Source: Bacteroidales bacterium (GTDB lineage Bacteria; Bacteroidota; Bacteroidia; Bacteroidales; Marinilabiliaceae). Taken from it: a DNA stretch of 64,000 nt. Each line of letters opens with the position of its first letter. Within the stretch, counting starts at the first letter, position 1. Below are positions 61,175-64,000 of this stretch, in pieces. Under the pieces are notes generated by a model. It saw only the letters and a list, made by a program, of their open reading frames with translations. It did not search any database and had not been told where the DNA came from. Made by a program: the position numbers and the translations under genes. The stretch spans positions 62,001 to 126,000 of the forward strand of contig SUWW01000006.1 of NCBI GenBank assembly GCA_015061285.1. The letters run 5' to 3'.

Positions 61175-62770
61175 TTACTTCTTTGCTTCTACAGCTGTTT
61201 TTTCGATAGCCAAGCCAGCTTTGTATGCTTCTATGTACTTATTGAAGCCTTCTACATCGGCTGCAGTAGGTGCAATCTCGGTGCCGGTGTTGCCAGCAAA
61301 TACTTTGGCGTCAAGCCAGTCGGCAAGGTTCTGCTTCTTGTCGTTGTTAACTACGAACGAAGCGAGCAATGCTATACCCCAAGCGCCACCTTCGCCAGCT
61401 GTCTCCATAACAGAGATTGGCGAGTTGAGCGCTGCAGCAAGTACACGTTGTCCAACGCCTTTGGTGCGGAACAATCCGCCATGACCAGTGATGCGGTCAA
61501 TCTTGATTTTCTCCTCTTTTAGCAAGATGTCGTTGCCAATCTTTAGTACGCCAATTGAGCCATAGAGGTGCACGCGCATGAAGTTGGCAAGGTTGAACTT
61601 GTCGTTGGCTGAGCGTACGAACATCGGACGACCTTCTGCCAAGCCAGTAACGGGTTCGCCAGATATGTAGTTGTATGCGAGCAAACCACCGCAATCGGCA
61701 TCGCCAGTGAGGGCGTTGTTGTAGAGGCGACCATAAAGTTCGTCCATATCTACCTTCTGACCCATAAGTTCGAGCGACTCTTTGAAGAGGTTAACCCATG
61801 CGTTGAGGTCCGATGTGCAGTTGTTGCAGTGAACCATAGCTACGAGGCTACCATCAGGCGTAGTAACCATATCGATAGCTTCGTAAGGTTTCGAGAGATC
61901 TTTTTCGAGCACAATCATCGAGAATGATGAGGTACCAGCCGAAACGTTACCAGTGCGTTGCTTAACAGCGTTGGTAGCTGCCATGCCAGTGCCAGCATCG
62001 CCTTCAGGAGGACAGAAAGGAATACCGGCCTTAAGGTGACCACTTGGGTCGAGTCGTTTAGCACCTTCGGCTGTGAGTGAACCAGCGTTTTCGCCTGCTA
62101 CGAGCACACGTGGGAAGATATCTAAGAGTTTCCAACCAAGTTTCTTAGGAGCGATGAGTTGATCGAATTTCTCAACCATCTTAGCATTGTAAGTTTTGGT
62201 CTGTGGATCGACAGGAATCATACCCGAAGCATCGCCTACGCCGAGAACCTTTTCGCCAGTGAGTTGCCAGTGAATATAGCCAGCAAGGGTGGTTTGAAAC
62301 TTGATGTCGCTCACATGCTTGTCGCCATCGAGGATGCACTGATAGAGGTGCGAGATGCTCCAACGCAGTGGAATGTTGTAGTTGAAAAGTTTCGAGAGTT
62401 CTGCTGCCGCTTTACCCGTGTTGGTGTTGCGCCAAGTGCGGAAAGGCACCAGAATCTCATCTTTGTCGTTGAAAGCCATATAGCCATGCATCATGGCTGA
62501 GATGCCGATAGCTGCAAGGTTCTCAATCTCAACGCCATATTGCTTTTGCACATCTTTACGCAGATCGGCATAGCAATCTTGCAATCCGTTCCAGATAGCA
62601 TCGATGCTGTAGGTCCACAACCCATCAACGAGTTGGTTTTCCCAAGCGTGGCTACCTTGAGCAATAGGCTTATTCTCGCCGTCGATAAGTACGGCTTTTA
62701 TACGCGTAGAGCCAAACTCAATACCGAGAATGGCTTTGCCTTGTTCTATTATTTGTTTAGCTGTTGACAT
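61175..62770 (-). CDS. araB: FGGY-family sugar kinase, probable ribulokinase
   Basis: 531 residues with the two-lobed FGGY/ASKHA fold. The ATP-binding start is [18 protein letters not shown] (about 14-31); [12 protein letters not shown], a [15 protein letters not shown] region and the C-terminal ATP loop [26 protein letters not shown] follow. It sits in the operon with L-arabinose isomerase, so it likely phosphorylates L-ribulose; related kinases use xylulose. Between araA and araB a GxxExxY gene intervenes. Complete; a strong terminator follows. Confidence 0.85.
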
Positions 62771-62774
62771 TTAT

Positions 62775-62798
62775 ATCACCGAATTAAACGAATGAAAC
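62775..62798 (+). repeat. Outer inverted repeat, left copy
   Basis: Begins ATCACCGAATTAAACGAA. It lies 4 bp upstream of the araB start. The RC of 63301-63325 matches it at about 22 of 25 positions, and a direct partial copy starts exactly 500 bp later at 63275. Confidence 0.75.
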
Positions 62799-62837
62799 AA
62801 ATTATATGCTTGAAGTTTTATTAGTAAAAAGCCTTTT

Positions 62838-62855
62838 ATAATTGAACGAATTATT
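62838..62855 (+). repeat. Inner inverted repeat, left copy
   Basis: ATAATTGAACGAATTATT. It matches the reverse complement of 63249-63266 at 17 of 18 positions (G/A at position 7). It lies 6 bp beyond the GxxExxY stop codon. Confidence 0.8.
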
Positions 62856-62861
62856 GCTGTG

Positions 62862-63248
62862 TTACCAACCTTGAATACGAACTAATCTCTGGACTTCTAA
62901 CGACGGTTGACCGAAATTTGCCAATAATCCTAATTTAGAATTCGACATTTTCATGTAGTTAAGAGTTTGTGCTTTGAATTCTGGGCGCCAATTTTCTACA
63001 GCCTTTAGTTCTACGATGATTTTCCCATAACAAACAAAGTCTGCACGATATATCTTGCCTATTTCGAATCCCTTATACGAAATGTCAAATTCTTTTTCTC
63101 TTTCGAATGGAATGCCTTGTAATTTGAATTCTATTTCAAGTGCATCTTGATAGACAACTTCGAGGAATCCACAACCGAGTTCTTTATGGACAGACATCAT
63201 AGCACCTACGATTTTATATGCTTCGTCTTTATATATGAGTTCATCCAT
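62862..63248 (-). CDS. GxxExxY-family protein (PD-(D/E)xK nuclease-like fold)
   Basis: 128 residues. The family motif is G27-F-L-E30-V-V-Y33. A nuclease-like core follows: D70 in RADF and E80-x-K82 in IIVELKAVE, the PD-(D/E)xK pattern, so a nuclease-type fold is likely, activity unproven. Small genes of this family are frequent and scattered in Bacteroidota and function is not established. Here it is inserted between araA and araB in the same direction and is bracketed by near-perfect 18-bp inverted repeats (17/18) that begin 6 bp after the stop and directly before the start codon. An outer inverted repeat also surrounds it. This suggests a mobile or formerly mobile cassette. Confidence 0.85.
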   Translation of the reverse strand: MDELIYKDEAYKIVGAMMSVHKELGCGFLEVVYQDALEIEFKLQGIPFEREKEFDISYKGFEIGKIYRADFVCYGKIIVELKAVENWRPEFKAQTLNYMKMSNSKLGLLANFGQPSLEVQRLVRIQGW

Positions 63249-63266
63249 AATAATTCGTTTAATTAT
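63249..63266 (-). repeat. Inner inverted repeat, right copy
   Basis: AATAATTCGTTTAATTAT on the plus strand. It abuts the GxxExxY start codon at 63248 and is the inverse of 62838-62855 (17/18). Confidence 0.8.
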
Positions 63267-63274
63267 AAAAAGAA

Positions 63275-63325
63275 ATCACCGAACCGAACTAATGCTCTTA
63301 GTTTCAATTAGTTCAATTCGGTGAT
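63275..63325. repeat. Hairpin with outer inverted repeat, right side
   Basis: Arm 1 ATCACCGAACCGAACTAAT (63275-63293) and arm 2 ATTAGTTCAATTCGGTGAT (63307-63325) pair at 17 of 19 positions. Arm 2 is the outer repeat partner of 62775-62798. It lies just after the araA stop, so it may terminate or stabilise the araA mRNA end. Confidence 0.78.
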
Positions 63326-63335
63326 GTTATGATTG

Positions 63336-64000
63336 CTACTTCAATGCTTTATTCAGCATGTAGTACACCTCGTTGTTGCGGAGTGTCTGCTTGAAGTCGC
63401 TGATGTTGGTATTCTTGTTAATCTTAACATATTCGATACCAAGCATCTCGGCGAAGTCTTCCCAGTACTCTTCGGTGATGTCGTATGAGAATGCGCTGTG
63501 GTGTGTGCCACCTGCGAGAATCCATGCGCCTGCACCGATTTCGAATGTAGGTTGTGGAACCCAAAGTGCCGAAGCAACAGGGAGGTTTGGCATTGGTTTT
63601 GGCTTTATGCACTCAACCTCTTGCGAGATGAGGCGGAAGCGGTTGCCAAGATCAACAACGGTAGCTTTGATACCACGACCAACCTTTGAGGTGAATACGA
63701 GGCGAGCGGTCTGTTGTTTGCGGATACCAATGCCGAGGAAGTGAACTTCGAGAGTAGGTTTGTCGACTGCGATGAGCGGGCAAACTTCGAGCATGTGGCT
63801 TTGGAGGCATGAGCTGCGGTCGCCAGCAAAGTTGAGGGTGTAGTCCTCGAGGAATGAACAGCCTGTTGGCAAACCTTGTGAGATGACCCACAATGTGCGG
63901 TAGAGGCAAGCGGTCTTCCAGTCACCCTCGGCACCGAAACCGATACCTTCGGCCATCAAACGCTGTGAAGCGAGACCTGGAATTTGGTCGAAACCAACGA
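63336..64000 (-). CDS. araA: L-arabinose isomerase (C-terminal part)
   Basis: The frame is open to the window edge, giving at least 221 residues; the N-terminus lies beyond 64000. Motifs: VGFDQIPGLASQRLMAEGIGFGAEGDWKTA (metal/active-site Glu in GAEGDWK), LEDYTLNF, QSHMLEVCP and GGTHHSAFS (metal His). It converts L-arabinose to L-ribulose in the cytoplasm. It is first in the visible operon, followed on the minus strand by the GxxExxY gene and araB. Confidence 0.93.
   Translation of the reverse strand, partial: VGFDQIPGLASQRLMAEGIGFGAEGDWKTACLYRTLWVISQGLPTGCSFLEDYTLNFAGDRSSCLQSHMLEVCPLIAVDKPTLEVHFLGIGIRKQQTARLVFTSKVGRGIKATVVDLGNRFRLISQEVECIKPKPMPNLPVASALWVPQPTFEIGAGAWILAGGTHHSAFSYDITEEYWEDFAEMLGIEYVKINKNTNISDFKQTLRNNEVYYMLNKALK

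Follow-up and report, generated by a model that had tools for sequence, protein, structure and literature searches.

A gene of the GxxExxY family lies between araA and araB in a 64,000-nucleotide stretch of a Bacteroidales genome (the whole of which is here called the window), where it is enclosed by nested inverted repeats. The question raised by this arrangement is whether the gene and its repeats form a mobile unit, as the original prediction proposed, and what part the nuclease may play in it.

Architecture of the cassette and its nuclease

The nested inverted repeats around the GxxExxY gene are real, and chance is excluded as their source (Table 1). An inner pair of 18 bp with 17 matching positions (62838-62855 and 63249-63266) had been predicted, which is recovered and proves longer, extending to 22 nt of which 21 are complementary. 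The outer pair proposed to span the araA-araB gap is likewise found, with 17 of 19 positions matching. As foreseen, a distance of 4 bp separates it from the start codon of araB (ATG, 62770) and one of 10 bp from the stop codon of araA (63336), while the expected direct repeat of 9 nt, ATCACCGAA, is present at 62775 and 63275, 500 bp apart. In addition, 63275-63293 and 63307-63325 form a local hairpin (19 nt, 89%, 13-nt loop), and thus a complete small palindrome adjoining araA. None of 100 dinucleotide shuffles of the 565-bp araA-araB gap contained an 18-nt inverted pair with at most one mismatch, and the best flank-to-flank inverted score of the GxxExxY gene was 19.5, whereas 500 shuffles gave 14.0 at most; the flanks of araA, araB and araD were unremarkable in the same test. 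The nuclease is the sole ORF between the arms, and no transposase gene is present inside the cassette.

Table 1. Features of the cassette and its host genes, in window coordinates
Feature	Position	Strand	Basis
Whole cassette between araA and araB	62775..63325	- (operon sense is minus)	outer repeats at both ends
GxxExxY / PDDEXK_3 nuclease gene, 128 aa	62862..63248	-	TIGR04256 and PF13366 matches, alignment
Inner arm, start side, AATAATTCGTTTAATTATAAAA on the + strand, abutting the ATG	63249..63270	-	no equal in shuffles
Inner arm, stop side, 6 bp past the stop	62834..62855	-	inverted-repeat pair
Outer repeat ATCACCGAATTGAACTAAT beside araA; dispersed family	63307..63325	-	repeat pair and genome scan
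Inverted partner of 63307-63325; local 19-nt hairpin like the solo palindromes of the genome	63275..63293	+	
Outer repeat ATCACCGAATTAAACGAAT beside araB	62775..62793	+	inverted-repeat pair
araB-like FGGY sugar kinase, downstream host gene	61175..62770	-	FGGY_N/FGGY_C
araA (L-arabinose isomerase), 3' part, upstream host gene; remainder outside the window	63336..63998	-	

The encoded protein is a full-length family member that exceeds the curated cut-offs of both matching profiles (TIGR04256, E 1.9e-43, 147.5 bits against a cut-off of 35; PF13366, E 1.2e-40, 139 bits against 22). Its GxxExxY motif and PD-(D/E)XK residues are intact, G27, E30, Y33, D70, E80 and K82 being invariant, and an alignment of 20 sequences leaves D70, E80, K82, Q94 and Y98 unchanged. 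As judged from substitution patterns, the protein is under strong purifying selection (median dN/dS 0.069; 0.085 between this genome, G000, and G002 of the same genus). The folds nearest to its structure model (pLDDT 93.5) are those of Cas4 SSO0001, MGME1 and alkaline exonuclease, with a weak match to I-Bth0305I. Cas4, MGME1 and alkaline exonuclease act on DNA ends or single strands. The fold and the invariant D-ExK-QxxxY residues are common to GxxExxY and the Cas4, MGME1 and lambda-exonuclease-type enzymes, although the GxxExxY protein has only about 125 aa and its model aligns loosely (query TM about 0.5). A sequence search for a relative of solved structure gave none that was convincing, and the PADLOC defence-system models gave no match. 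The gene occurs in 74 of 148 sampled Bacteroidota genomes; searches outside these genomes gave no match in phage genomes, one relative in IMG/VR and eight plasmid records.

Dispersed copies and recurrence across phyla

The outer repeat belongs to a family with 105 sites in G000 within three mismatches of ATCACCGAATTNAACNAATT, against two for a backwards control pattern. Many copies are palindromes of 50-130 bp or tandem arrays between genes, and all 30 checked sites fell outside long open frames; the solo forms include many palindromes of two or four arms, others being tandem direct copies or single arms. In a search of 15 genomes of the genus, only G000 and G002 carry GxxExxY, and these have 105 and 72 repeat sites, followed by G003 with 35 and no detected GxxExxY gene, and by 12 others with no more than four, which is near the control. 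The search of the genome and its relatives suggested by the original prediction therefore finds the repeat dispersed, with strong enrichment among gene carriers. The outcome named beforehand as refuting, repeats scattered all over intergenic regions, is literally true of G000, but from one genome to the next the repeats accompany the gene, and they are thus better read as solo copies than as irrelevant.

The two GxxExxY genes of G000 both belong to the ara operon. The second (L033 4983-5414), upstream of araA, has inverted flanks of its own of about 42 nt, built from a different unit, TTCACTAATT. Just outside the window, between a symporter gene and araD, lies a 23S_rRNA_IVP (PF05635) / four-helix bundle gene (L033 6247-6621; G000:C24) between inverted arrays whose units resemble TAATTACGA. 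The score of these flanks was attained in 6 of 500 shuffles. Elsewhere, similar AATTACGAATTACGAGTT strings stand beside ATCACCG arrays. Y1_Tnp is represented in G000 by two identical genes and one further match, and the two identical frames of 182 codons (L045 and L046; G000:C5 and C17) have repeated flanks of their own, unrelated to the ATCACCG repeat.

Beyond the genus, the flanking inverted repeats of 92 Bacteroidota GxxExxY loci beat all 50 shuffles in 76% of cases (mean score 15.2 versus 8.1 shuffled), as did those of 63% of 73 organism-named loci from many phyla, including Bacteroidota, Chloroflexota, Cyanobacteria, Desulfobacteraceae, Geobacteraceae, Akkermansia and others. Among neighbouring control ORFs, significant flanking inverted repeats were found in 6% (n=18; Bacteroidota set) and 1.6% (n=62; named set), so the expectation that other GxxExxY genes would be bracketed by analogous repeats is met, and controls do not share the feature. 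At the thresholds used, 24-37% of GxxExxY genes lack significant arms. The arms consist of units of 8-11 nt, typically CACAGAG or CGCAAAG and in other cases, for example, CACGGAG; on either side the units face inward, at spacings of mostly 8-11 nt, and they fade about 150 bp out. GxxExxY cassettes between apparent hemE and hemN genes (named by eye) were seen in two genera of one family (L140 and L154).

Arrays of three units were found in 43 of 74 gene-positive and 3 of 74 gene-negative genomes (Fisher p 2e-13). This genome-level association is partly phylogenetic, because a single family poor in the gene accounts for most of the negatives; when the three families with the best sampling are pooled, arrays occur in 23 of 34 gene-positive versus 2 of 11 gene-negative genomes (p 0.006), and none of the families reaches significance by itself. 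Arrays are more numerous than GxxExxY genes in several genomes (46 versus 4 in G107), and gene-less copies therefore abound.

Each element is also coherent in itself: both of its arms use the same unit type (mean difference 0.06), which different elements in one genome do not (0.65), and unit type follows the protein tree, with 17 changes versus 35.5 when shuffled. The C-terminal tail of the protein, RxVNNL for CGC units and RxI for CAC units, fits the unit type in 97 of 107 cases. It remains no more than a candidate for the specificity determinant, since evidence independent of the tree is lacking: the independent-pairs test left only one pair on well-supported branches.

Occupied, solo and empty states of the junctions

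At the araA-araB junction itself, G002 has this cassette, bracketed by the same repeats, in the equivalent position. Nine relatives in the genus in which the araA end was recovered have an araA-araB gap of 2 to about 120 bp without a GxxExxY gene, and a clean empty site was not found at this junction in the genus, the gene-less gaps being too diverged. When the G000 gene (window 62862-63248) is compared with that of G002 (L049), the upstream part is strongly diverged and the last part identical, which implies a sharp recombination breakpoint inside the cassette gene. The araB proteins of the same two species are 99% identical. Most of the solo repeats compared are common to both genomes at orthologous sites, and recent movement is thus rare. 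The same comparison found a 104-bp palindrome-bearing piece only in G000, at a place where the coding regions of the two adjoining genes overlap in G002, and one tandem array with two copies versus one.

Alternative states are seen at one conserved gene pair in Flavobacterium (a genus name that rests on synteny of G081 with a Flavobacterium-named record). There is almost nothing between the two genes in L360 and L361, a gene-less palindrome in L351, L354-L357, L362 and L363, a full cassette in L334, L335, L353, L359 and others, and a stop-broken cassette in L336. The units of L351 are of the CAC type and those of its close relative L210 of the CGC type, which suggests, as an inference, that these elements arrived separately. 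At the same Flavobacteriaceae site, an apparent remnant of a second GxxExxY 3' end follows an intact cassette in L212 (about 2375-2480).

The empty sites that had been named as support are accordingly met in part: gene-less araA-araB junctions exist in readable relatives and the Flavobacterium junction offers empty, solo, full and stop-broken states, but no clean excision scar was obtained. The opposite case, relatives keeping the gene at this site without the repeats, was not seen. The absence of a clear target-site duplication, already remarked on for this locus, is borne out over 67 elements, in which duplications are near chance (for 4-mers, 4 observed and 1.1 expected), and none is visible at the Flavobacterium junction.

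Competing explanations and significance

The cassette is probably a compact mobile-element-like unit, in which a Cas4/MGME1-like PD-(D/E)XK nuclease gene is set in inverted arms of iterated units and accompanied by gene-less derivatives, although active movement, target duplication and biochemistry have not been demonstrated. The derivatives consist of two or four arms back to back, forming palindromes of 50-150 bp, often in tandem, in the same genomes. This reading rests on what was observed of architecture, recurrence across phyla, dispersed copies, repeat-gene association, arm coherence, alternative states at one locus and purifying selection; the points against it are the absence of target duplication, the mostly orthologous solos, the lack of a clean empty site at araA-araB in the genus, the presence of repeats in G003 without a detected gene, the share of GxxExxY genes without significant arms and the loss of significance of the genome-level association inside single families. 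Of the proposed "small non-autonomous mobile unit", the mobile part is supported, while "non-autonomous" suits the gene-less palindromes better than the gene-bearing cassette.

As to mechanism, the nuclease, alone or together with host machinery, may act on the arms when these are single-stranded or extruded as hairpins, an inference for which there are no binding or cutting data. Such action would copy, move or maintain the cassette and its solo derivatives, much as RAYTs (REP-associated tyrosine transposases) are thought to act on their palindromic repeats, the REPINs (PMC3116915, PMC2817692). Both systems have a gene flanked by inverted palindromic repeats and dispersed extragenic copies without the gene, and no target duplication is seen here. 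However, GxxExxY is a PD-(D/E)XK nuclease and not an HUH/Y1 transposase, and its arms are arrays of 8-11 nt units rather than GTAG/CGTC-tagged REPs. Because the enzyme is unrelated, the cassette is not a member of the RAYT/REPIN family, and the analogy concerns how the system works. A RAYT was also considered as the owner of the repeat and rejected, the Y1_Tnp loci being without it. IS elements and MITEs offer a second comparison, with terminal inverted repeats around one gene and short gene-less derivatives, but the cassette has neither transposase nor detected target duplication, and its arms are made of short units. A classical insertion sequence was rejected on these grounds, in spite of the terminal inverted repeats: there is no target duplication and no transposase gene.

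It is unlikely, though conceivable, that the repeats instead form a separate REP-like family that owes its mobility to a different enzyme, such as a Y1 transposase acting in trans, GxxExxY then being either a passenger or a nuclease of the host by which repeat-rich sites are used or controlled. The Y1_Tnp genes of G000, the repeats of G003 and the lack of target duplication, as in IS200/IS605-like movement, would all fit, but the Y1 loci are not flanked by the outer repeat, the two arms of any one GxxExxY element match each other, arm type parallels the nuclease tree, and arrays track the presence of the gene.

Slightly less credit is due to a cassette acting at the RNA level, whose arms would pair in the transcript to form a stem-loop removed by RNase III, so that the unit would be tolerated inside operons. 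Excision by RNase III is known for the intervening sequences (IVSs) of 23S rRNA (PMC4990558), which, with their S23/IVP protein (PF05635), resemble the cassette in having one short ORF boxed by inverted repeats; the GxxExxY cassette does sit inside an operon, and the same ara operon contains an IVP-family gene between inverted arrays. IVSs differ in lying in rRNA and encoding a four-helix protein, whereas here the gene encodes a nuclease, its neighbours are protein genes and the arms are also found by themselves. Arm mismatches have no excess of G-U-compatible changes (194 versus 226 mirror changes, p 0.13), the arms are iterated units found also as solo palindromes genome-wide, and there is no Rfam match. 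The mismatch pattern gives this explanation no support, yet it cannot be dismissed. A free-standing homing endonuclease, cutting alleles that lack the gene and leaving the repeats as hairpins of repair, is very improbable, since a homing gene tied to one site would not be expected to have iterated-unit arms, solo copies and many different insertion contexts. In its favour are the existence of PD-(D/E)XK homing nucleases, among which I-Bth0305I matches the fold weakly, and the occupation of one and the same site in many species of Flavobacterium.

With the mobile-element-like unit retained as the preferred reading, the finding that GxxExxY relatives are boxed alike in many phyla and that the repeats are scattered in their genomes looks like a widespread, apparently undescribed system of this kind. 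Nothing on repeats was found in the literature on the family, in open-licence papers only, of which no more than two mention the family by name, and a description elsewhere is possible. More tentatively, and with doubt outweighing confidence, GxxExxY nucleases may constitute a new class of simple bacterial mobile element, in which a single Cas4-like nuclease would recognise iterated-unit arms, with its C-terminal tail as candidate determinant, and spread both itself and gene-less palindromes. To our knowledge, no nuclease of this type is known to drive simple mobile elements alone. For GxxExxY genes, which are very common yet lack an assigned function, the link to the arms provides a first testable one; it would also account for a large class of palindromes between genes, and a type of nuclease would join the drivers of simple mobile elements.
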